A stretch of 64,000 bases of DNA from Caenorhabditis elegans. Lineage: Eukaryota > Nematoda > Chromadorea > Rhabditida > Rhabditidae. The notes below the pieces were generated by a model. The model was given only the letters and a program-made list of their open reading frames with translations, was not told where the DNA came from and made no database searches. Positions 3,600 to 64,000 of this stretch are shown piece by piece; the first letter of the stretch is position 1, and each line of letters starts with the position of its first letter. The stretch covers positions 868,001 to 932,000 of the forward strand of contig NC_003280.10 of NCBI RefSeq assembly GCF_000002985.6, in the 5' to 3' direction. Both the position numbers and the translations under genes were made by a program.

Positions 3600-3978
3600 T
3601 TTTTCAATTTGCTAATTTTTTTTTTCAATTATGTCTTGTTGTCGTGTTTTTGATAATCTGAAATTTGTTGCGTGGATTTTAATAAAATGTTTTTTTGGTA
3701 CTAAAAATGTTCCTAAATTTTTCTATATTTTGCTAGTTACCGGCTCAACGAAGGTGGTATATTTTAAAATCTGAATATCTGTAAATCTACAAAAGTTAGC
3801 AAAAGATTGTCAATTAACAAAATAATCTACGCAAATTGTTCTATAAGTTGTTAATTTACAAATTTTTTGTAGCTCAACTTTGAGCATAGTTATGATAGCT
3901 CTAAGTAGGGACAGGTTACCTGATTTTTATCAATTTTAAAACTTAAATATCTCCAAAAGCATCAAAGCTAATAAAAAA
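3600..3978. other. Intergenic, 3' flank and inverted-repeat-like DNA
   Basis: This contains the polyadenylation signal AATAAA at 3681-3686 of the preceding gene. Low-complexity sequence with the 'gttatgagc / gctcaactt' arm type follows. The LTR element inserts at its right edge. No gene is seen. Confidence 0.5.
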
Positions 3979-4134
3979 TGTTGGGTATCTACGTGTACCT
4001 TACCCTTAACGTGGATATGAAGATCGTGTAACGTGAACTCATTATCTATGTATACTAACTTTCTATTTATTCCTTAGTTATGTAATAATAAACTACTCGT
4101 CTTCGCCTCCTTGTTCGGCCTCGAATATATAACA
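3979..4134 (+). repeat. 5' LTR
   Basis: This is a 156-bp terminal repeat with TG...CA ends. It contains a possible promoter/poly(A) region (aataataaac near 4085-4093) and one difference from the 3' LTR. Confidence 0.85.
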
Positions 4135-4788
4135 TTGGCGATCAGGATCTTTCGGGCTCACTGCACCACTGACTTCATGCACATGTCTACTTAGAAGAAA
4201 AGACCTCTGAGGTATTGTTTTGATCTACACATGTCTACTGGGAAGAAAAGACCTCTGAGGTGGATCAGGTCAGCTTTGGGAAGAGGCACCTGCCGTGCTC
4301 TCTGCAGTTGCAGTCAAGGTGGACAGGAGCGGCTTCTGGTTTGAAGTCGAAAAGAAGAAGGAATCATTGCTCAACTCTTTTGAAGATGCGAGTGAAGGCC
4401 ACCTATGCGTTTCAAATGCTCAGTCATTGGACGATTGCACAAATTGTTATTGGTCATAACATGATCCACAACCAGGAACTGGGATACAACAGGTTGATGG
4501 TGGAACAGGCGGAATCAGTGTGGATGATTCAAGGTTGGGTCTAATATTCAGGCAGCAACGTTTTTTTAGTCTGTTGGTGAAGGGTGGATAGACATCAAAA
4601 ATATTTCGATTGGTACGGGAAGTGTGGCTAACTTGGAACCCGCAATTGGAGGATGTGAACACCGAAGTACCGTGTGCAAAGGATTGGCAATATCGACGGT
4701 CACACTGGAGGGTGGTCCGTGAGAACCTCAGAAGACATTCGTGGATGGCTCCTCACCAAAGCTCTCGTTTGTCATTGAAGAGGGGAGA

Positions 4789-4944
4789 TGTTGGGTATCT
4801 ACGTGTACCTAACCCTTAACGTGGATATGAAGATCGTGTAACGTGAACTCATTATCTATGTATACTAACTTTCTATTTATTCCTTAGTTATGTAATAATA
4901 AACTACTCGTCTTCGCCTCCTTGTTCGGCCTCGAATATATAACA
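4789..4944 (+). repeat. 3' LTR
   Basis: This is a 156-bp terminal repeat preceded directly by the purine tract GAAGAGGGGAGA (4777-4788) and followed by AAAAA. Confidence 0.85.
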
Positions 4945-16639: not shown

Positions 16640-18149
16640 ACATTGTCCGCTGCTAATTTCTAACAGTTTTTTTTAGTATTTTTCGGCGCAGAAGGTCCAT
16701 ATTCCTCTTTCTTCTCATTCTAGTTCTAATTTTATAAATTTGCTCCCGCATACATTTTTGCATACATTTTTATCTCATGACGCGGACATGCCACAAATGT
16801 CTAGTTAGGCTTGTTCAAAAGATACAAAATTTATCTACACATCTACAAGTTAAACTTGCAACTTAGTTAACCAAATTCAAAAGTTATGAGCCGGGGAACT
16901 ATAATAACCAACGTTTCACACTAAAAAAGCCCAAAAAAATTCGAAAATCATTTTTATCTCATGACGCGGACAAGCTACAAATGTCTAGTTAGGCTTGTTC
17001 AAAAGATACAAAATTTATCTACACATCTACAAGTTAAACTTGCAACTTAGTTAACCAAATTCAAAAGTTATGAGCCGGGGAACTATAATAACCAACGTTT
17101 CACACTAAAAAAGCCCAAAAAAATTCGAAAATCATTTTTATCTCATGACGCGGACAAGCTACAAATGTCTAGTTAGGCTTGTTCAAAAGATACAAAATTT
17201 ATCTACACATCTACAAGTTAAACTTGCAACTTAGTTAACCAAATTCAAAAGTTATGAGCCGGGGAACTATAATAACCAACGTTTCACACTAAAAAAGCCC
17301 AAAAAAATTCGAAAATCATTTTTATCTCATGACGCGGACAAGCTACAAATGTCTAGTTAGGCTTGTTCAAAAGATACAAAATTTCTCTACACATCTACAA
17401 GTTAAACTTACGACTTAGTTACCAACGTTTCACACTAAAAATCATTCCGCAATCATTCCGGTAATTTTGAGAGAAGTTTGGAAATGAAAAAAAAAATCAA
17501 TAAATTTCAGATAGAGGACTCGTTAGAGTTTACTGCACGTCCGAAGGACTTGCCGGAGTACCCAATTGATGTTTTTATGATGTATAAGGGAGTAGAAAAC
17601 GGTACACTGACCCATCATTGGGTTGGAGGGCTCAGCCGTGAGTTACTGTAGAGCACTATCGGGGTACTGTAGGCCTACGTTGGGATTAGTGAATGACTAT
17701 TGTAGAGGTACTATAGAGGTTCAGTAGGAGTACTATAGAAATACTTTAATTTCACTGTGAGGGCTATTGCAGAAATTTACTGTAGGGGTACTGAATGGTA
17801 CTTTATCGGTACCGCAAAATACTTTTTAAATTGAATTCCAGCGGATGGCACCAAATACAAGTACACCTACCCTATCTACGGCCCCTGGTGTGCTGCAGAC
17901 CTTAACGGTCATATTTTCTGGGTCTCCTGCACTCCGCTGGAAAAACTTGTGGTAGGTTTGGAGACTACATGGATAAGCTTTTTCTTTTCTTAAAAGTCCT
18001 TTCAGGCAGAATACGGAGAGTTTTGGTATTTGGACCGCCATTCGTCTAAATTCGAGTGGAATTCCTCGCACAATAATGTGAAAGAGAATGGGAAATTTAA
18101 AAAGGAACAGATGAAGACGGTTTATAAAATGTTTGAGAATAATTTATAG
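16640..18149 (+). pseudogene. LicD/fukutin-like transferase, copy 2 (core deleted)
   Basis: The anchor-encoding start is recognisable at 16670-16760 (ttttcggcgcagaagg, then a Leu/Phe-rich stretch) but is followed by a 184-bp satellite instead of the middle exons. After 17432 a scrap of the core exon (attccgcaatcattccg) leads into the later exons: 17511-17637, about 17840-17950 and 18006-18149 (stop TAG 18147-18149). The GGTFLGW/DMD core is missing, so no active enzyme can be made. The late exons remain clean and match copies 1 and 3, so the loss looks recent. Confidence 0.8.
16767..17432. repeat. 184-bp tandem repeat, about 3.6 copies
   Basis: The word tatctcatgacgcggaca recurs at 16771, 16955, 17139 and 17323, exactly 184 bp apart, and the units are nearly identical. 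The array replaces the middle exons of LicD copy 2. Confidence 0.95.
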
Positions 18150-22684: not shown

Positions 22685-23321
22685 AATGAATAAATTTTTT
22701 GGAAGCAGCGGACATTTTACGGGTCTCAGCAAGCACTTAAAAAATATCAGAGAGCAGCGGACGTCCTACGGGTTTCAGAAAGCAGCGGACAACTTCCTGT
22801 CTTTGGAAAGCAGCTGACATCTTATGGGCTCGGGAAACGATTGCTTACCTGATTTCTAATATCTGGAGTATTGGTCTTGAAAATGTCTAGCCCGGAAAAA
22901 TGCAAAATTTGCACCAAAAAATGAATTCCCAAAAGTTTAAAAAGTTCATTCCCGATCACCTTTGCAGATCATCTTTGCTGATAACTAATGCAGTATATAA
23001 CAGCATATCCTAAGTCCCCGACCACTTTTTAAAAATTCTGGAACTTTCTGAAAACTCATTAATATAGCTGCCAATAATTAATTACTCAAAATTCTAAAAA
23101 AAATTATTTTCTTCAACCACAAACACCCAAATTTTTTTAAAACTTTACAGATTTACTCATTCATGTCTGAAAAATAATAGAAACACAAAAAATCAATACT
23201 CACTGTTTGAAATTGAACTGAAATTCTAGTTTTAATATAAGCACAGCTGCAAATAATTATTTACTCATAATTCTGAAAAAAAAAACTTCTTCAACTACAA
23301 TCACCTAAATTCTTTAAAATG
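22685..23321. promoter_or_regulatory. Dispersed motif cluster and orphan promoter cassette B
   Basis: Positions 22705-22830 contain four gcagcggacat/gcagctgacat units on the strand opposite to those at 10967. Positions 22938-23010 repeat the GATA/TATA cassette (aaaaagttcattcccgatca, gctgataactaatg, agtatataacagcatat), but no signal-peptide gene follows. The remaining DNA to 23321 is AT-rich without exons. Confidence 0.6.
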
Positions 23322-24035
23322 GAGAACTATGGAAAATATGGTGTTCCAAATGAGCAATGGTTTTCAAATTTTTTTAAACTGAGAATTATGGAAAATATGG
23401 ATTTTTAAATGTGCACTGGTTTTCAAATTTTTTTAAACTGAGAATTATGGAAAATATGGATTTTTAAATGTGAACTGGTTTTCAAATTTTTTTAAACTGA
23501 GAATTATGGAAAATATGGATTTTTAAATGTGAACTGGTTTTCAAATTTTTTTAAACTGAGAATTATGGAAAATATGGATTTTTAAATGTGCACTGGTTTT
23601 CAAATTTTTTTAAACTGAGAATTATGGAAAATATGGATTTTTAAATGTGAACTGGTTTTCAAATTTTTTTAAACTGAGAATTATGGAAAATATGGATTTT
23701 TAAATGTGCACTGGTTTTCAAATTTTTTTAAACTGAGAATTATGGAAAATATGGATTTTTAAATGTGAACTGGTTTTCAAATTTTTTTAAACTGAGAATT
23801 ATGGAAAATATGGATTTTTAAATGTGAACTGGTTTTCAAATTTTTTTAAACTGAGAATTATGGAAAATATGGATTTTTAAATGTGAACTGGTTTTCAAAT
23901 TTTTTTAAACTGAGAATTATGGAAAATATGGATTTTTAAATGTGCACTGGTTTTCAAATTTTTTTAAACTGAGAATTATGGAAAATATGGATTTTTAAAT
24001 GTGCACTGGTTTTCAAATTTTTTTAAACTGACAAT
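23322..24035 (+). repeat. 59-bp satellite, about 12 copies
   Basis: The unit gagaattatggaaaatatgg ... ttttcaaatttttttaaact recurs every 59 bp from 23381 (for example 23440, 23499). A diverged first copy lies at 23322. Copies differ mainly at gtgcactgg versus gtgaactgg. Confidence 0.95.
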
Positions 24036-39338: not shown

Positions 39339-39534
39339 TTTCAAATAACAGCGAACTAAGAATTGTGAGAACCTAGGAGCCTATAGAGGCTCCTACTGCA
39401 GTAATAACCCTCACCCGCAGCTGCTGGAGCAAAGTGTAACTTTGAGCATTTGGTAGAAATTAAGTTTATTTATTACAAAGACTCGGCGAAGAGTCAGGAA
39501 ATTAGCAACAATTACGTAGATTTATTTAATTGAA

Positions 39535-41631
39535 TTATTGAACTTGGAACTTCATTTTCATCCTCCCGACATTGTCTCTTGCAGGGTCATAACTGATGTA
39601 AAGCTCCGTGGAATTGTCCATCCGAAGTTTGACATGAAGTTCAGCTCTGTAAAGTTTTTTTTGTAAGAATTAGGCGCTGAAAACTGAACCTACTCATCGA
39701 CAATTCTATCCGCATTGGACTCCTTCATCTCATCCAAAAATAAAATTATTTGATCCTCGTTACTGATGTCAAATGTGTACTCCGTACCAATCTCTTGCCT
39801 ATTTTCGAGCCAACTCTTTACACTTGGAGGAAGTTGCTTCAATGCGTCGAAGATATTAACATGAACTTTTCGATGGAAATTTTGAAGTTTTAACAACTTT
39901 TCTATCTTACAACCACCGGGAAAATATAAAACTCCACAAGTTTTAAGAATAGGGTCAAGAGAATCCCATTTTCCATAGACTTCGATAGATTCCAGTGGGA
40001 AGCTTGAAACGTGAAGTAGAGGACGAATCGCGTTGAGATCTTCGTCAAAATTATTGCAACTGAGACTTAAATGTTTAACTTTGAACTGCATATTCTTGGG
40101 AATACAAACTATAAAACAAGAATCAATGAACAAGCTCTTCACACAAATTGTGGGTCTTCCAACGAATAGTTTCTCCAGAAGGCTTCTCTGTGCTTCATGG
40201 ATCTTCTTGTTATAGGCAAGATGTTCTTCATAAAGAGGGACTCTATCCGGCGAATTGATACTGAATCTAATGTGCTGATCAAGTGGCTCACGAGCAATTG
40301 ATATTTGAGATTTGATGCCCATTTCGCGAGCCATCAATTTTAGATATTTGAATTGATATCGGGTTTTCCGTTTTTCCAGCGCCTCCCGAGCCTTAGCTAG
40401 TCCTTCAATATCCTCAATTCCATCATTTCCGTTTAGACCTTCAATTCTGTCATATTCGTTCTGTAGTAATTGGAGCTCATAGCTTAGTTCAAGATGCATG
40501 TTGGAGGGGTCTCGATTATCTAATAGAATTGTATCGGGATTCTGATCCACGACAAGATCGTAGTCTATCATACCAAATTCGTCAACGTCAAAGGTTTGGT
40601 CAATCTCTTCGTCGGTCTTAACTTGAAATGCGTAGCTAGTGCGATTAATTTCAACGCCAAATTCGCTTATATCCAATCGCTCAATATGCATGGGAACTTC
40701 TAGTTCGATATTTTGAAGGGCTGGGCATTGATTCGAGAGTTGGAATCTGAAAAATTCAAGGTTTCCAAATGATCTATGCATAGTCAGTTTCAAGTAAGTC
40801 ACAGCTTTGCTAAAGTTCCAAAAAATTTCTAGTAACTCCTAGAAAATTTCAAAAGGTTGTAGTTATATCTATGTGCATTCAATATTCCAGAACACTTGAG
40901 AAATTTTATAAACAGTTTCAGAAAGTTCCAAAAAATTCTAGAAACTCTGAGAATCAACGAGAAAAGTTGCAAAAGGCGTGGTGCTAGGCTGCCCCATTAC
41001 GGTTTGATTTACAAAAAATGCGGGAATTTTATTTTCTAGTTTGTGCTCCAGTTTTTGGAGCCCAACTTGAGGAGAGTTGAAATTTGATGAATTTTATAAG
41101 GTTTAAGCTCGAACAATTTAGATTTTCCATTTCCTCGCGATGCCCATCAAAAAAAAATTTTTTCCCAAAAACATATGACGTCAGCACGTTTTTAATCATG
41201 CGAAATCAGTTAAAAACTCTGAGTCTCTTCTCCCGCATTTTTTGTTGACCTACGTAGACCAAACTGAAATGAGACAGTCTGACACCACGTGAAAAGACGT
41301 GGTGCCAGGCCGTCCCATGACGGTTTGATCTACTAAAAATGCGGGAATTTTTCGCCCAAAAAAAGTGACGTCAGCACGTTCTTAACCATGCAAAATCGGT
41401 TGAAAACTCTGAGTCTCTTCTCTCGCATTTTTTGTAGATCTATGTATACCACTTGGCAAAATATTCTAAATAGTTCTGAAACATAGATCATCTAATTTAT
41501 GTGCAGCCGACATCTCACAGACCTAATTTCAAGCATGTGGGGGTTTAAGGTAGAACTTACCTCAACCTAGGCTCCAAATATTGCAGCAAACTTTTAGAGC
41601 TTCCATCTGATAGTTGAAGGCTTGTAGACAT
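39535..41631 (-). CDS. DUF3557 / F-box-C-like protein (411 aa)
   Basis: Exons on the minus strand are 41561-41631, 39694-40746 and 39535-39646. The first exon encodes MSTSLQLSDGSSKSLLQYLE-PRLR, then FQLSNQCPALQ. DVDEFGMIDYD is the acidic motif (about residues 76-86), and EKLFVGR is its version of KLFCGR. The last exon supplies the conserved ending ELHVKLRMDNSTELYIS. All parts are in frame and intact. Its 814-bp first intron contains two copies of a palindromic MITE and a 109-bp fragment of the neighbouring gene. It is divergent from the next gene with only 166 bp between the two start codons, so the two may share a promoter. Confidence 0.85.
40973..41293. mobile_element. Palindromic MITE carrying a captured gene fragment
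   Basis: The outer ends are gtggtgctaggctgccccat (40979) and the complementary agtctgacaccacgtg (ends about 41293). Subterminal parts (gatttacaaaaaatgcggga and tcccgcattttttgttgacc) also pair. The family is recognisable from copies at 41297-41462 and 55497-55680. Between the left arm and the middle sits 109 bp (41041-41149) identical to 41838-41946 of the adjacent gene. Confidence 0.8.
41041..41149 (+). repeat. 109-bp copy of exon 1 end/intron/exon 2 start of the next gene
   Basis: From ttgtgctccagtttttggag to tcgcgatgcccatca the sequence is identical to 41838-41946, including the mutated splice donor (TTGAG|GAGAG). It lies in direct orientation, 797 bp away. Confidence 0.95.
41297..41465. 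mobile_element. Second copy of the palindromic MITE
   Basis: It contains gtggtgccaggccgtcccat, gatctactaaaaatgcggga, gtgacgtcagcacgttctta and the right arm tcgcattttttgtagatcta, without the inserted fragment. It directly follows the first copy. Confidence 0.75.
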
Positions 41632-41797
41632 TATTTTCGTAGCAAAACAATCCGAAAAGTGAGAGTTCGACGCGTAATAGAGTTTGGCTGGGTTCCAAGA
41701 GGGGCCTACTGCTGACCCTGCACAGCTGTTGCGCACACCTTTTTTTTACAACACTTGCAGACTGCCGTCCAGACCGGTATATGTATTCCAATTACAA

Positions 41798-43592
41798 ATG
41801 CCTACTACTGTCCCCCTGACCTATCTGAGCTCCAAACTTGTGCTCCAGTTTTTGGAGCCCAACTTGAGGAGAGTTGAAATTTGATGAATTTTATAAGGTT
41901 TAAGCTCGAACAATTTAGATTTTCCATTTCCTCGCGATGCCCATCACTCCAGCTTCTAGAAAAACATGCTCCTCTGAAAATCAAAAAATTGAAAATCAAC
42001 GAATGCAGTGTGACTATCAACAAAACCTCCTACACCATTGGAATCCGAAATTCCTTGCAAACCGCCGAAGATCTTGCATCTGGTGTTGACCTTGATCAGT
42101 TTGGAGGTAGGGCTTTGGAGCAAGTTCTTGTGCAGGAACCGGATGAGTTCCTGATAAGGGGTATAGACTATTTTGATTTTCAATATAAGGCGGAAAAAAT
42201 GAGGATTAAAGAAGAAAATGAGAAGATTACCAAGATGGATGATAGTGAGGAGAAGAAAAGGGCTCGGGGCGTACTTGTAAGACGTTTTGCAATGTATCAA
42301 GTGAACTGTCTTCAAAGTCTTGCTCAAAAAACCAAAAGCCGTGAGCCAATTTCAATGGTTCAAATTCCTTTCTCTCAATTTCTACACTTTCAAACCACTG
42401 ACCATCTAGAAGTGCTCTATTACCACAGAAAAACTCACGAAGCTCTCAAATACTTGCTCATAAAGTTGCTCGGCGGACGTGGTCAAATCGCGGTCAACAA
42501 ATTCCACATCAGCGCTAAGGGGATTCTTCGGATCCCTAGGCTTAAATTGAAAATGTTGAATCTCAAAATTGGAGGCAACAAAATTGACGAAATTTTTGCG
42601 ACTCTCCTGGAGAACGGAATCATAGACGTTTCGAGTTTCCCACTGCAATCTTTCCATACTGATGGGTGCACCTATCGCCGATATCCGGAAATGCGATCTG
42701 CAAAAATGATCATTCTCGAGTGTACTTATTTTGGACCTCGTTTGCTATGGTCAGGAGCCGACGCTCACCCAAGAGTTCATTACACCAAAATGTCTGAAAA
42801 CGCCTACAATGGAGTTACGAGGCTTGCAACTGATTGGATTCTGAACGCCCCGCCAATTGGAACCATCGTTTCGTTTGGATATTCAGCATGGAATTTTTGT
42901 AATTTGCAAATTAAGAAAATCAAGAAAATTGAAGGTGCTATCGTTGCTAAGTGAGTTCATTTTAATTTTTGATTTTTAGATATCAATTTCTAGTAGTTTT
43001 AGAAGTTTCAGAGTTCTAGAAAAAGTCTAGAAAATACCAGAAAAACTTTTTAAAGTCTTTTGAAAACTTAATATTCTTTTCTAAATAGCTTAAGACCGTT
43101 CCAGAGAGCTGTGGATTGCTCTGAAGTTTTCATTAATTTTTAGCAAGTTCTAAGAAAAGTTTCAAATGCTTAATATACGTAAATTAAGTTAAAAACATTT
43201 TAGAATTTATTTTGAATATTCTAGAGAGTTCTACAAACTTTTACATAGGTTTTAAAATATACAGAAAAATCAAGGTTGATACAGAAAATAGTACATTTTT
43301 TGGCTACATCTACTATATAGTTACTACATTTCAACGTTTTTAGAAAGTTCGAAACCGCCTGGATAGTTCCAGATAGTCCCAAAAAAATTTGCATCCTTTT
43401 GAAATTTATTTAAAACCTAAGAAGCTTTCTTTGATAGCGCCGAAGTTCAATGTTTTCAGGCAACCGGAGCTCGGTGTCATTTTTCGAATCAATGACACTA
43501 CGGAACTTCATGTTTTCCACGAGAAAAACCCAAAAAAAGCAGATCATTGGAATTTGGTGCTCACAATTCGCAAGCCTTCACAATTGCAATAA
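41798..43592 (+). CDS. DUF3557 / F-box-C-like protein with lost splice donor
   Basis: Family exons are 41798-41868, 41919-42950 and 43460-43592. Exon 1 encodes MPTTVPLTYLSSKLVLQFLE-PNLR. Exon 2 starts FSISSRCPSLQLLEKHAPL and carries DLDQFG and KLLGGR motifs. Exon 3 ends with the usual FRINDTTELHVF segment. The donor after exon 1, GT in every paralogue here, reads GA (TTGAG|GAGAGTTG). The spliced frame then stops (RRVEI*). Exon 2 is also open upstream across the intron to ATG 41884 (MNFIRFKLEQF), so a protein of about 400 residues can start there without exon 1, possibly with the same downstream sequence. Whether the gene uses this start, a rare GA-AG splice, or is dying cannot be decided. AATAAA near 43721. 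Confidence 0.7.
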
Positions 43593-44005
43593 GTTGTATA
43601 TTTTTTAAATGTCACTTTTTTATTTTCAAATTTTTAAAAAAAAGCTAAAAAAAATTTATTTTAATGTATTTTTAAATGCATTTTGCATTTAATAATTTTA
43701 TTTTGCTATGAAAATATCAATAAATGTTCATTTTAACTTTATGTATATTTTTCAGACCAGTTTCAGATCCGGAAGGCTCAAAAAACATTTGCTTCGTAGT
43801 TTAGCAGATATATTTCACATGGTACATACATTCCAAACTTAGTAGGTCCAGGGGAGGAGATCTCGTGGCAAAACGTCAAACTTCCAATCGATACTGTGCC
43901 AAATTGACCTTCGATCTACTCCCCTAGTCTGTTGCGATTACTACTCACACTTTTCTATATCATTTTATTTCTAGTGTTTTTTATACCACAAGTTTCTGAA
44001 TAAAA
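43593..44005. other. Intergenic, no gene seen
   Basis: AT-rich 3' flank with aataaatgtt at about 43721, then the promoter side of the next gene. No exon is present. Confidence 0.5.
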
Positions 44006-44985
44006 ATGTCTTATTCGAAGCCGCTTGCCTACCCAAGTCAAAAATGTGTCATCAAGCATATGGAGGTTAATTCGAGGTATGTTTTGTTAGAAAATTTGGA
44101 AAAAAAGGCCTTATTCATATTTTTCAGATTCAAGCTTTCCCATCAATCCCCATCAATCCGGAAAATCGAAAAATCAACTCCTCTAAGAATCGACAGCTTG
44201 ACTTTGAAACTGGATCAGTGTAGTGTCAAGATCAACAATATATTACACACTTTCCGCAAAGAGAAGCTTCCCAAAAATATGCAGCTCCCCCAAGCATTCA
44301 TGTGCTTGATGTCCAAGCTGTTCTGTGGTAGACGGGATCCTATTCAAGTGAAAACGCTGTCGATTGAGTGTAAAGGGTCTCTACAGCTTCCTGCAGGCCT
44401 CTGCTTGAAAGTGAGCCATTTGGAAATCCTGGGCTCTGGAGTGGATAAAATTGCTGATGACTTACAACCACTACTCAGAGGATCCAAATTACAATCCATC
44501 ACTGTTAACAACGACTTTAACATACATCATCCTATATTCAAAACCGCCCATCTCCTAATCCTCAAAAACCCTAATAAGAACTTGTTCCGAGCGACTGCTG
44601 CGAGCAATGTTATGGTGAAAAGTACTTGTCAGTTCTTAGATCTCTTCGACAAAATTGTAGAACTTATCAGAAACTGGCAATCTTATGGACAAAAAATCGG
44701 AGCAATCTGGAATTTTTCGATGCGTCAGGAACAGTTTGCTCTGTTAAGTTTAGTGCAACTCCGGAAACTGCCTGGCGCCAGCTATAAAGGACATGAAAAG
44801 TGAGTTGGCTTGTCAGCTCATGGGGTTTCTAGAGGATCCTAAAATGAATTTTACCTTGCAGATTTTCGGAATCTGGTCGCAGTATCATAATTCCAATCGA
44901 CAACTCCGCCGAAGTCCATGCTTTTGTCAAGAAGGAGCAAGATGATTGCAATTTGAATGTGATTGTTCGTCGGAGGCAATTTTAA
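44006..44985 (+). CDS. DUF3557 / F-box-C-like protein, short form (288 aa)
   Basis: Exons 44006-44076, 44128-44799 and 44862-44985 are in frame. It is most similar to the gene at 45667: shared LSIECKGSLQLPAGL, KVSHLEILGSGVDKI and WNFSMRQEQ. Relative to that gene, about 97 residues are absent between INNILHTFR and KEKLPKNMQLP, including the whole DLDQFGAIDLD acidic motif. The reading frame is kept, so this is an in-frame internal deletion after tandem duplication. It may make a stable shortened protein or be on its way to loss. Confidence 0.8.
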
Positions 44986-54906: not shown

Positions 54907-55887
54907 CCTGTGATTGCTTGTTCAGTCAGCGAATGACTTTTACGCAATTTTTCGCGAGTGATAAGCCTCTTATTCATTTTTAATCAGTTTTTGATAACGA
55001 TTCTTCCGAAGAAATTTGAAATTTGATGCGGAGTCGAACTATAAAGAAAATCAAATGATCAATGTTCAGAAACGTTTTTTTTCTTCAAAATTAACTTTTT
55101 GATCGAGAAAAAATGGTATTATAAAGACGGATGAAAATTGAACTATTCAGCTGAATCCCTCACAGTTTGACGTCCAAAAATTGCGGGAAACTTTTTCGTG
55201 AGGCCTATTGCATGACGTCATCTTTATTGTGTGCACGGGTTTATTGCTTTTCCTAGTGCCCGCGAAATCGAGATTCGAATTTTTATCGGGGAAGACAAAT
55301 TCAACAGTGAAAACCTAGGGCCCCCAGCCACGACGGCACGCTCTTTTCAATGTGCTCTTTTTCTCAGCGCATACCACTCTCCACGTCTTTTCCACTCTTC
55401 AAGAATGCATTAGGGCGCGATTGCTATCGCCCGTGCGGGAAAAAATTTGACGGGGGAAATAATTAGCCCGTGCGTGTGACTGGTATGAATGTGACACGTG
55501 GTGTCAGGCTGTCCCATTACGGTTTGATCTACAAAAAATGCGGAAATTTTTCGCCCAAAAAAATGTGACGTCAACACGTTCTTAACCATGCGAAATCAGT
55601 TTAAAACTCTGCGTCTCTTCTACCACATTTTTTGTAGATCTACGAGGATCTAACCGTGATGGGACACCCTGACACCACTGTGCTTGGCCTCTTCCCTGTT
55701 TCCCCCTCTTCCCGGCTCGGCTGGAAACGCGCACAGAACGTATAAATGGACCCTAAAAATCAATAAGTAGGTAGCTAGCGCGTTATACATGTTCTATTCT
55801 TGTTTCTCTCATTCTTTTCTCTGTACAATCCCTGGATTTCTTACGTTCCCCACTGGATTCTCTATGCAATAATTTTTGTTTCAGATT
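54907..55887. other. Lectin promoter, MITE and upstream region of the next gene
   Basis: Positions 54957-55060 hold the GATA-type words (gtgataagcctctta, gtttttgataacgattct) shared with 52520-52640. Positions 55497-55680 are a MITE. A TTTCAG at 55879-55884 precedes the next ATG by three bases and is a likely trans-splice site. No exon is present. Confidence 0.6.
55497..55680. mobile_element. Palindromic MITE, third copy
   Basis: The left end is gtggtgtcaggctgtcccat and the right end gggacaccctgacaccac. Inner arms gatctacaaaaaatgcgg and cacattttttgtagatctac pair. The middle (gtgacgtcaacacgttctta) matches the copies at 40973 and 41297. Confidence 0.8.
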
Positions 55888-57148
55888 ATGCTGCTCGCTT
55901 ATCAATCTGTCATAGCCTCTATCACTTATTTGAATCCAAATATCAGGTTTATTTTTTTCGATTTTCAACCACTTACAAAAATAATTTTTCAGATTCCAAC
56001 TGTCCCGTCGTTGCCCATCACTAAAGTCTGCAGAAAAATCAGCACCTCTTTTTATCAACAAGCTGAAATTGTGTACAAACAGCGTAGTTGTTAACGATAT
56101 CAGCTATGAGGTTGATGTCTACAAAACCTCGGAAGCGGTATTGCTGACGTATAATACAGATTTGGATGTGTTTGGTTCCATCGATTTTGATCTGGAAATT
56201 GAGGAACAAAATGAAATATTACTGGATCACAGAACGTACATGGCTGAGAGAATGAGATTGGAAAGAGAAGTTCTAGGTTTGATGACACACTCTCGAAATC
56301 CGAATGCCGATTTGAGCCGACTAATGGAGATTAATAGATTGAACAAAATTCGAATTCAAGCTCGGGAGGACAGAAGGGAAGTACCCAACACTCCACCGGA
56401 GCCTCCACTTGTACAGGTCATTGAGTTTGCAGTCATGGAGACGGATAATTATGGCGACTGTTTAGAAAATGAGCAGCTTACCTATGATCGAAAACTTCAT
56501 GATGCTGTTAAGTATATCATGGAGAAGCTTTTCTGTGGCCGAAAGACTCCGGTTCACCTATCTACTTTATCAATCAATAGTTTTGGAATTCTACGGATTC
56601 CATTAAACATGAGATTCAAGATCCGACATCTGAAGCTGGTATCTGGTCATGCAAATGAAATCGCAAGCAAAATTCGGCCGATCATTGAAGACTCGAGTTT
56701 CCCGTTGAAATCTATAATAATCAAGGATCCAGTCGAGTTTGACGATCCGATCTACCACTCCACACAACTCCTCGTTCTTAGACATCAGCTTGAGAACCGA
56801 TCACCAAGGTTTCTAAACGTCAAAGTTCTGCCAAATCAATTGTATGTTACGACTAAAATATTGAATTGGGTACAACAAGCCCGGCCAGTTGGGACATGTT
56901 GGGAATTTGTTGGAATTGATAAGAACTCAAAAAGGCAGTGCGTTCAAAAACTCATGCAAATACCTGGCGCGATGCGTGCATTGCACACAAAGTAAGTTTT
57001 TGCTTACTTTTAATATTCCAGTTGTAAAATTTATTTCAGGTTATGTTGGATCATTCTACCAGCAAACGACGATTCGGAAATCCACGTCACTGTCGCTCAA
57101 GATAAGATAAATTCGAAGCAATTCAGCATAAAGTTAACCGTTTATTGA
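55888..57148 (+). CDS. DUF3557 / F-box-C-like protein (388 aa)
   Basis: Exons 55888-55946, 55993-56991 and 57040-57148 join in frame. Exon 1 is MLLAYQSVIASITYLNPNIR; exon 2 begins FQLSRRCPSLKSAEKSAPLF. TDLDVFGSIDFDLEI is the acidic motif and EKLFCGRKTPVHLSTLSINS the central one. The third exon is ILPANDDSEIHVTVAQ. The start is set by a TTTCAG acceptor three bases before ATG. The gene is undamaged. Its 3' half was copied to 62605-62985. Confidence 0.88.
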
Positions 57149-58530
57149 AGATTTGTTGAAATTTCAAGTTCTAATAAAATTTCTGAATTTCTAAAATTTT
57201 TGTGCTAGGGTTTCACGACTTTCGAAACAGTTGGTGTAGCCTATGATCTGTAAGCCGAATCGATGTTACCTCGTGTTATTTTGGAATAATTTTTTTAATA
57301 CGTCAACACAAAAGTTAGAACACAAATACAATGCAATAGACTGACATCTGAAACTAAATGACATTTGACAACGTTAGGAGCTATCTGAACGTTGAATGAA
57401 TTAAACGGTAAGGGCCGGCTGGGGTTCTACATTCATTTATTGGTACAAATAGGAAAGATAAATAATACAATATTGGAGATGGTATATATAGGTAGGAAAA
57501 ATAGGCGGAGCCAAGATGCTGTGGTGTTAGGGATAAGAGAGTTTGATGGGGACAGAAAAAGGTGGGAGGAAAGTCGGCGTACATCAAAGGATGATTGTTT
57601 TTGACTTAGACGTTATTAACAATTAAAACAATAAATAAAAATATAATTCAATTATTAATCCATTATTAAATTCCTTGGCTTTTGCTTGATTGAGGTATGA
57701 ATCATGCAATGATTTCATACATTGAACGTTAAACACAAAATTGGGAAAAATTCTACAATATATTTGACTACATAGGAACTGCCGAACATTTTACGCAACT
57801 TTATAGGACATGGGGAATCAATTAGTAGTGTTTATAGACAAGAGTGTTTATATGAAAAAGGCAAGTGAGCTAACAGACGAGTTGCACAGTTATTCCGAAA
57901 ACTTTCCATTGGAGCACTTAGAAGCTGGTGGTCTTTTTTTACCGGATATTGCGTTTGAACTAAAACTGGAATATTCGTACATTCAAAAGGATATGTTGCA
58001 TGCAATTGTGGTTTAAACAATAGGAATACTCATCAAGGAAAACGGAACTTTTAAAATTAATATTTTGTCTTCACGAGTTGGTTCAAGATGATTGTTTTGA
58101 CAAGCCACATGTTGGTGAAATCCTCGATGATTTTTTGCCGTTCCAATGATTTTTGGTCTGTATCAAACCGATCGAGATTTACAAAACCGCATAGAAACTT
58201 CTGAAACCATTTAGTCTTTTTTTGTAGACTTTTCGAGAAAAAATTCAAAAAATTCAAACAATGAGGATCATAAGAGTTCTTGAATAAAGTGTAACTTATG
58301 TGGTTTTTTGAAACTTTGTGAAATCATGGAAAAGAAATTTCGAAGAATTCAAGTCTTCAAGATTATTCCCAAGTTATCCGTAGATTCCTGGAAAATTTCG
58401 AAGTGTTCTTAAAAGCTTCCCAATTAGCGAACAAAGTCAAGACCCTCCATGGAGTGTTCAAACGGCTGCTTGTATGAAATAAAAGACAAAAAACACAATT
58501 CACACAATTCATTTCAAGACATGGGACACT
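57149..58530. other. Intergenic, no gene seen
   Basis: A polyadenylation-like aataaaattt is at about 57172. The rest is AT-rich. The frame at 57810-58016 has no signal peptide or recognisable domain and no splice context, so it is not called. Confidence 0.5.
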
Positions 58531-61484: not shown

Positions 61485-62529
61485 TTAAAAATCTTCTCTG
61501 GGCTGTACTTTGAAGTTCAATCTCCATTCCTCTTGAAATTCCTCGTAGTCGATGGCGAGCTCAGAGAAATTGTCGATGTTCATGGCAACACTTGGTGGCT
61601 CCATTAACCTGTAAAAAAATAAAATTCACCGTTCTTTAACAAACCAGTACATTTTCTACACTAAAATACGTGAAACCCAGCTAGAAATTGCAAAAAAAAA
61701 GCTCACCGCCTCGATATTGCCGGTCCGAAATACTTCAATAGCCGGGCAGAACTCGCTTTTACATCGTCTTTAGACCAATACGGTCCAACCGAAAAATGGG
61801 TTCCAACTTCTTTTCCATGCTCCAGCAATGATGAATGAACTTGAAGGTCTCTCCGATATCAAAGTATCGTGCATGTACCCTTTTATTAAAGACCAGACGC
61901 ATGCTTTTAATATCCGGAACAACCAAGAGCAGGACATTTTGGATTATTGGGTGTTTGATATGTAGATTTCTCAATATTCTCAAAGCTTTCAATGGGAAGG
62001 TTGAAGGGTGGAAGATCGAGGGGAGAGATTCCAGTGTTTCGCGTAAATTTCCAGTGTAAATCTCCAAAGTATCGGTGACAAGATTCCTTGCGTTTTGGAA
62101 AGCATCAATATCCATTCTAATGCAAGTATGCTTTGCGATAATTTTCCTATCTCCCAGAATCTTTTTCAGCACATATGATGGCATCACTTTCCCGAAAGTC
62201 GTATTTAAAGCCACTCGTTCAGTACTAGTACGACCATCAATTTCTAGCCCTAGGAGAACATATTCTTGACTTGATTTTCTCGCCTTCCTAGTAGTTTTAG
62301 TTGTCTTGTAGTAAGTCTCATTGATTTTAAGATTTTCTTGGTTCCAACATAGCTCTCGAATATGTAATGGAGAGGTTTTCTCACAAAGTTGGAGAGATGG
62401 GCATCGCATGGATAATTGAATTCTTAAGAAAGTTTAGCGGTTTATAAAATGCACAAAACTTTTGTCTCACCTTAAATTTGGCTCCAAATATTTCAGTACA
62501 GATTTCAAATTCAAATAGGAGAGTTGCAT
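61485..62529 (-). pseudogene. DUF3557/F-box-C-like gene, left arm of inverted pair, frameshifted
   Basis: Exons on the minus strand: 62471-62529, 61707-62422 and 61485-61608. The first exon reads MQLSYLNLKSVLKYLEPNLR, identical to the right-arm gene at 63184. Exon 2 (SMRCPSLQLCEKTSPLHIR...) lacks the acidic DLDEFG motif. Close to its end the frame is lost at cattgctggagcatgg, where the right-arm gene has aaatggctggatgatgg: one G is missing. As a result the protein ends at 61759, while the proper continuation (HGKEVGTHFSVGPYWSKDDV) and the third exon (NIDNFSELAIDYEEFQEEW) lie in another frame. Without the deletion it would be about 299 residues. Confidence 0.75.
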
Positions 62530-62604
62530 GGTGAGTCGATATGATTTGTGGAGGACACTGTCTGTGGGTGGAGCAGAAAAGAGCAAACTGTCAGCAGCGA
62601 GCAA

Positions 62605-62985
62605 AGTTCTGCCAAATCAATTGTATGTTACGACTAAAATATTGAATTGGGTACATTGATAAGAAGTCAAAAAGGCAGTGCGTTCAAAAACTCATGCAAA
62701 TACCTGGCGCGATGCGTGCATTGCACACAAAGTAAGTTTTTGCTTACTTTTAATATTCCAGTTGTAAAATTTATTTCAGACCATGTTGGATCATCCTACC
62801 AGCAAGCGACGATTTGGAAATCCATGTCACTGTCACTCAAGATAAGATAAATTCGAAGCAATTCAGCATAAAGTTAACCGTTTATTGAATATTTACTGGA
62901 TTTTCAAATTCTAATAAAATTTCTAAATAATTCTTACTGGGGTTTCACGTCTTCTCTGAACAGTTGGTGTGGCCTATGTAAAACT
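62605..62985 (+). pseudogene. Copied 3' fragment of the gene at 55888
   Basis: From aaagttctgccaaatcaatt through the third exon to gaacagttggtgtggcctat it matches 56821-57243 at high identity, including the intron, minus a roughly 40-bp deletion after gaattgggtac. It sits exactly in the spacer of the inverted pair and cannot encode a protein on its own. Confidence 0.85.
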
Positions 62986-63183
62986 CTGTGAAAGATTTGT
63001 TGTCTATGTCTCCTGAAAACACACAGTCTTTTGACGTGACCTCTTCAATGTTGTGTGCACGTCGTCTGAGAGACATTTGACGGCACTTCTGTTTACCTTC
63101 AGGCTCTCTTGCTCGCTGCTGACAGTTTGCTCTTTTCTGCTCCACCCACAGACAGTGTCCTCCACAAATCATATCGACTCACC
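62986..63183 (+). promoter_or_regulatory. Right-arm promoter region, mirror of 62530-62604
   Basis: ttgctcgctgctgacagttt and the following 70 bp up to the ATG are the reverse complement of 62530-62604. The two divergent copies therefore share identical proximal promoters. The part before 63109 has no counterpart in the left arm. Confidence 0.7.
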
Positions 63184-64000
63184 ATGCAACTCTCCTATTT
63201 GAATTTGAAATCTGTACTGAAATATTTGGAGCCAAATTTGAGGTGAGACAAAAATTTTGTGTATTCTATAAACCACTAAACTTTTTTAAGAATTCAATTA
63301 TCCATGCGATGCCCCTCTATCCAATTTTGTGAGAAAACCTCCCCATTACATATCCAAGAGCTTTGTTGGACCAAGACAAGTCTGAAAATTAATGAGACTT
63401 ACTACAAGACAACTAAAGCTATTTGGAAGGCGAAAGAATCAAGTCAAGAATATGTTCTCCTAGGTCTAGAAATTGGTGGTAGTACTGAACGAGCAGTTTT
63501 TAATACGACGTTCGGGGAAGTTATGAATTATATCCTGAAACAGATGCTGGGAGGCCGGCAGGTTATCGCAACACATACTTGCATTGGAATGGATACTGAT
63601 GCTTTTCAAAATGGGAGGAATCTTGTCACCGATACTTTGGAGATTTACACAGGAGATTTACGCAAAACTCTTGACACTCTCTCCTCAATATTTCACCCGT
63701 CAAGTTTCCCATTGAAATCTTTGAGAATACTTGACAATGCAGACTTCAAGCACCCTATAATCCAAGGTTCCCTGCTCCTGGTTGTTCCGAATACTGAGAA
63801 CATGCATCTGATATCTAATAAAAGAGTACACGCGCGATATTTTTACTACAAAGATGACGTCGACTTTATTATTAATAAATGGCTGGATGATGGAAAAGAA
63901 GCTGGAACCCATTTTTCTATTGGAATGTTTTTGACTGAAGACCATGTAAAAGAGAAGTATGAAGAGTTTTTGAGCACGTTTGAAGAGAGAGTTTCGTGGA
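63184..64000 (+). CDS. DUF3557/F-box-C-like protein, right arm of inverted pair, cut by window end
   Basis: Exon 1 is 63184-63242 and exon 2 starts at 63291 (acceptor tttttttaag) and is open to the last base. It encodes IQLSMRCPSIQFCEKTSPLH..., KQMLGGRQVIATHTC (family KLFCGR position), ILDNADFKHPIIQGSLLLVV and DDGKEAGTHFSIG. Like its mirror copy it lacks the DLDEFG segment, so the pair forms a shorter subfamily. About 292 residues are visible. The third exon should lie beyond the window. No damage is seen. Confidence 0.85.

Follow-up and report, generated by a model that had tools for sequence, protein, structure and literature searches.

A DUF3557 gene fragment inside an old MITE of Caenorhabditis elegans is likely a templated repair filler

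Introduction

In a 64,000 nt window of the C. elegans genome (868001-932000 of its contig, the whole stretch analysed here), an old resident MITE is interrupted by a 125 bp insert, most of which was copied from a neighbouring DUF3557 gene. We consider it likely that this insert is a templated repair filler copied from that gene, that is, a single-copy Pack-TIR, and on the best reading of the data transposition is not needed to explain it. The features of the locus, in window coordinates, are as follows.

39690-40746, minus strand: gene A exon 2, DUF3557, in one open frame with exon 1
40747-41560, minus strand: gene A intron 1, 814 bp, holding the MITE dimer and its insert; predicted from the open frame and homology
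40969-40974, no strand: left copy of the 6-bp repeat GCAAAA, taken to be the dimer's target duplication
40975-41291, plus strand: MITE copy A, a 186 bp element broken by the insert
41031-41155, plus strand: insert, 125 bp, of which 109 are copied from gene B, with AATTTT on either side
41041-41149, plus strand: copied gene B fragment, antisense to gene A, recognised by identity and genome search
41292-41295, no strand: AAAA, the joint between MITE copies A and B, from sequence
41296-41455, plus strand: MITE copy B, in tandem with A, 26 bp being deleted close to the right end; last seven bases CCACTTG
41456-41461, no strand: right 6-bp repeat GCAAAA, from sequence
41561-41631, minus strand: gene A exon 1, 71 nt from ATG, donor GTAAGTT; homology model
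41798-41868, plus strand: gene B exon 1, 71 nt from ATG, followed by GA in place of GT; homology model
41838-41946, plus strand: source of the copy, parts of gene B exon 1, intron and exon 2, recognised by sequence identity
41869-41918, plus strand: gene B intron 1, 50 nt, beginning with GA
41919-42954, plus strand: gene B exon 2, DUF3557, open frame to 42954

Results

An exon-intron-exon fragment of gene B lies antisense in a predicted intron of its paralogue

Genes A and B, the models of which rest on sequence and homology, are divergent DUF3557 paralogues with 71 coding nt before the first intron in each, and the exon 2 frame of gene B matches DUF3557 at 3.9e-39. Sequence comparison found window positions 41041-41149 and 41838-41946 identical at 109/109 nt, with copy and source on the same chromosome in the same (direct) orientation at a spacing of 797 bp. 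In the copied stretch, gene B exon 1 accounts for 31 nt, its intron for 50 nt and exon 2 for 28 nt. When the whole genome (100,286,401 bases in 7 contigs) was searched with the 109-nt sequence, two matches were obtained at E up to 10, namely the copy and its source (two candidates, two scored). With this identity, and with arms that belong to one element (see below), the original prediction of an exon-intron-exon fragment of the neighbouring DUF3557 gene within a MITE is borne out. It had missed that, on the gene models, the MITE dimer and insert appear to lie within intron 1 of gene A, the insert being antisense to that gene.

The donor dinucleotide is GT in gene A and at all 10 of the 29 other paralogue loci where the exon-1 motif matched (nine distinct places, with five near-identical tandem copies; the motif missed in 19/29); these loci came from 30 of the 59 matches of the gene B search, one of the 30 being gene B itself. 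Because GT is found in gene A and in the paralogues with the motif, gene B has probably lost its splice donor, and the copy would carry the loss. The copying therefore postdates the donor mutation, as had been proposed, unless copy and source were homogenised afterwards, and a splice-site mutation that travels with a copy in this way orders events in time. If intron 1 stays in the gene B transcript, the frame of an ATG at 41884, within what was the intron, continues in phase through to exon 2, and gene B might still make protein from this new start.

The insert interrupts one half of an old tandem MITE pair

A family consensus was made in this analysis rather than taken from a library, using 33 intact copies; 52 loci gave 36 full-length hits, of which three were duplicates, and partial hits were excluded. 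It is 187 bp long with CACGTG ends, and the family has 3728 arm matches when up to two mismatches are allowed. Exact 6-bp target duplications were found in 14/33 intact copies, the other 19 having none by exact match. Short, with TIRs, a uniform target duplication and many copies, the family has the features of a MITE; a 17-base word of the arm had no match in the open-licence literature searched. Bases 5-58 of the locus adjoin bases 184-319 in the intact copies listed, mostly with a 6 bp overlap, which indicates that the two arms are those of one element; the possibility, named beforehand as one that would refute the prediction, that they come from different elements did not hold. Copy A aligns to the two termini of the consensus, and the bounds first given, 40973-41293, located the MITE correctly, its exact ends being refined to 40975-41291.

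Copy A is half of a tandem dimer under one 6-bp repeat, which had been overlooked. A 6-mer match at the spacing of the two GCAAAA repeats has a chance probability of 0.0005 in the window, or 0.003 with a slack of ±2, and the pair probably arose by a single insertion followed by tandem duplication, or entered as a dimer. Copy A without the insert equals the consensus at 168/186 positions and copy B at 147/160, so both are 90-92% like it; the median identity of the 33 intact copies is 0.94, with 3/33 below copy A. Copies A and B agree at 137/158 positions, and since they differ at 21/158 the GCAAAA-bracketed pair is old. Another copy of the same family lies elsewhere in the window (55497-55673) and is 84% like copy A without the insert.

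These data bear on transposition-linked capture, in which transposition or excision repair would have brought the fragment into the element, and the resulting chimera would have moved here or been restored here. That reading would account for a TIR element with foreign DNA inside, in a family with 6-bp target duplications (14/33, as above), but neither the genome search nor the anchor survey described below found a second copy of the chimera, the source lies next door, the GCAAAA repeats bracket the pair A+B as a whole, whose divergence marks it as old, and the break is internal rather than at the element ends. We therefore regard it as quite improbable. The original claim of a capture by the element acting as a transposon is not upheld, given one copy only, a source 0.8 kb away and a MITE that is apparently much older.

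The insert is unlikely to derive from an RNA intermediate

From left to right, the insert consists of ATTTTCTAGT (10 nt), the 109-nt copy and a run of six A, which becomes eight extra A when the two A of the following AATTTT are included. AATTTT flanks the insert at 41025-41030 and 41156-41161. The right joint has 1 bp (A) of shared sequence and the left joint none. For ATTTTCTAGT, the left filler, no template was found nearby, and the left-joint sequence had no match in genome_contigs or viral_contigs (microbes and viruses), as expected. Folding of the consensus gives a long hairpin (z -10.8; 0/200 shuffles) and places the insertion site in an A/T mini-hairpin atop the main one, with bases 52-58 paired with 64-70.

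An A-run at the insert end and AATTTT on both sides could suggest retroposition, that is, reverse transcription of an unspliced gene B RNA fragment into the MITE with an A-tail and a short target duplication. The intron kept in the copy is no counter-argument: intron absence is the usual test for an RNA copy, but this test fails once the parent gene has lost its splice donor, and because gene B has lost its own, so that normal splicing of that intron is not possible, the kept intron is uninformative on a retroduplicate origin. Nevertheless, the fragment stops within exon 2 with no polyadenylation signal recognised by eye before its end, the surplus is just 6-8 A, the linker of this family being A-rich anyway, and 10 extra bases stand at the left end. 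On balance, retroposition appears very unlikely.

No other gene-fragment filler was seen among surveyed copies or in the window

A genome survey with exact anchors on either side of the linker, which samples a few hundred members of this large family, found linker gaps of 8-38 bases, the normal length, at 282 places, of 39-99 bases at none, and of 101-161 bases at one, which is the present locus. The normal linker is A-rich among the matches listed. No gene-fragment filler was recognised at the five places with longer gaps. Among the three with 161-221 bases, one continues into an inverted stretch of the same family and the other two are matching places in apparent duplicates of one tandem array; among the two with 223-283 bases, one joins neighbouring elements and the second has a normal linker, judged from its first letters alone. 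For the right half of the element, 215 places had 20-50 bases and one had 101-161; in the latter another inverted-repeat element is nested, apparently with a target duplication of its own, GTTCATAA (L088, around 1440-1581). The present locus is the only gene-fragment filler seen in this exact-anchor survey.

The window itself has 48 direct exact repeats of at least 40 bases (the best 40 of the 48 are listed) and 6 inverted ones, together with 13 rows of gapped matches of at least 90%. Among the repeats looked at, which were classified by eye, no second isolated gene-fragment copy was recognised in the window; the remaining ones were tandem arrays, an LTR-like pair, MITE-to-MITE matches, short repeats and palindromes. 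The gapped list at 90% or above is without two exact repeats over 110 bases, 56927/62667 and 62474/63109, both of which belong to longer diverged duplications.

One of these is a direct duplication, 56821-57245 / 62602-62978 (83% over 426 bp, with 113 exact bases inside). The other is inverted, 62001-62604 / 63109-63703 (88% over 605 bp, with 131 exact bases at 62474-62604/63109-63239); in its right copy (63109-63703), GTGAGAC follows what resembles a DUF3557 exon 1 end, and the two copies are possibly a further head-to-head paralogue pair with a conversion tract. The direct repeat 3978-4134 / 4788-4944 (157 bp, 99.4% identical, about 650 bp apart), with TGTTGG at or near the left end and AACA at the right end, has the look of paired LTRs from a very small LTR element. 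At 16765-17425 and 23307-24035 there are tandem arrays, their periods being about 184 and 59 bp, respectively.

The insert is probably younger than the MITE

The insert is 100% like its source while copy A is about 90% like the consensus; under equal divergence, the probability of zero differences in 109 positions is about 1e-5; for insert versus source, divergence is at most 2.7% (95% upper bound). This comparison suggests that the insert is probably younger than the element, and serves as a rough guide, as divergence from the consensus includes family history. Perfect identity and a common donor mutation would also result if an older capture had been held identical by gene conversion between copies 0.8 kb apart, and in a variant of this the donor mutation might have passed from the insert to gene B. 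Such a history requires an extra process of which nothing at the locus gives a sign, and we consider it very improbable. An assembly artefact is extremely unlikely: the check drew on a single assembly, but the repeat is short, both joints are clean, and the C. elegans reference is a finished genome.

Discussion

A probable templated repair filling of the linker

The reading that we favour, repair filling from gene B, starts from an old tandem MITE pair resident in gene A intron 1. A break or a stalled fork would have occurred in the linker of copy A, a hairpin-forming element, and synthesis would have switched to the paralogue B, 0.8 kb off in the same orientation, copied 109 nt across exon 1, intron and exon 2, and then switched back. 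Such events would have left AATTTT at each flank, 10 bases for which no template was found at the left joint, and at the right joint an A-run in which no more than 1 bp is shared. The polymerase activity may have been theta end joining or replication template switching. That the sequence is found at two places only, 797 bp apart in direct orientation, and that the consensus forms a hairpin with a mini-hairpin at the insert site, both argue for repair filling, while the scant joint homology (1 bp and none), the 10-nt left filler without a found template and the length of the copy argue against it. For theta-type inserts, both a length of 109 nt and a distance of 0.8 kb may be on the high side. 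The anchor survey and the lower divergence of the insert, rough as the age contrast is, speak for repair filling, as do the features of single-copy Pack-TIRs and of theta inserts given below.

Function and significance

The piece is most likely inert and would be removed with gene A intron 1. Masking of the gene A splice donor by the insert was considered and rejected, as folding of the gene A pre-mRNA at 20 and 37 degrees put the donor in the same local hairpin whether or not the insert was present. Paralogy of the two genes accounts for the complementarity between the insert and the gene A exon 1 end, which has a duplex value of -56.0 against a mean of -33.9 (sd 4.3) for 300 letter shuffles, 0 of which were as low. 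Rfam gave 0 matches in 39500-44500. Since the filler lies antisense in that intron, each A pre-mRNA would hold 109 nt complementary to intron-retaining B RNA, inside a MITE hairpin; that a single repair step thereby gave A an inbuilt means of regulating B through antisense or small RNA is highly unlikely. The significance of the locus lies in exemplifying cleanly how gene scraps can spread by repair rather than by transposition, and the general picture is unchanged by it.

Comparison with known systems

Tan et al. 2021 (PMC8277862) explain single-copy Pack-TIRs by gap filling: the source is near, the stretches of microhomology are short, the breakpoints are internal and the resident element is older. 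There, 56.9% of 281 single-copy Pack-TIRs lie within 15 kb of their source and 67.6% have microhomology at one or more breakpoints, with a median of 2 bp. Compared with the definitions given there, the present locus has two flanking TIR parts of one element, each with at least 10 bp of the consensus ends, and an internal sequence longer than 100 and shorter than 5000 bp, with at least 90% identity and a length ratio within 80-120% (125 vs 109 bp, or 115%, and 100% identity over 109, BLAT itself not being used). It also has a unique best parental hit, with one match besides itself, and, as for gap filling, a source in cis within 15 kb (797 bp). As to a TE within 100 bp of the parental copy, the present MITE family, the one family searched, has no match there. 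The locus thus resembles these Pack-TIRs (PMC8277862) in its foreign fragment between two parts of one TIR element, its single copy, its nearby source on the same chromosome, an element older than the filler and an internal breakpoint. It differs in that its 125-bp insert is barely above the 100-bp floor of that study, that its element is half of a tandem pair and that the host intron is that of a paralogue of the source gene. Four Pack-TIRs were counted in the worm reference (PMC8277862), and the present locus may be one of them; no mention of it was found in the open-licence literature.

It is fair to say, as the original remark does, that nematode cases of such captures are seldom mentioned, but captures of this kind were already known, from these four (PMC8277862) and from Turmoil-1 (PMC2572040). 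Like the present MITE, Turmoil-1 of C. elegans is a worm DNA element that carries gene fragments; these lie in the transposon inverted repeats (PMC2572040), whereas here one private insert was found. With the Pack-MULEs of plants, as presented in PMC8277862, the locus shares a gene fragment in a TIR element, but the searches found no second chimera, and transposition is not needed to explain it.

According to PMC4490562, 24% of Tc1-excision deletions in C. elegans have templated inserts from nearby DNA, and none were found at such deletions in polq-1 mutants. The present insert is similar to these polymerase theta inserts in that its filler was copied from DNA near the presumed break with little homology at the joints, and differs in being flanked by AATTTT instead of showing lost element bases (PMC4490562). 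Taken together, the locus looks like a real but ordinary case of a repair process already described in animals.
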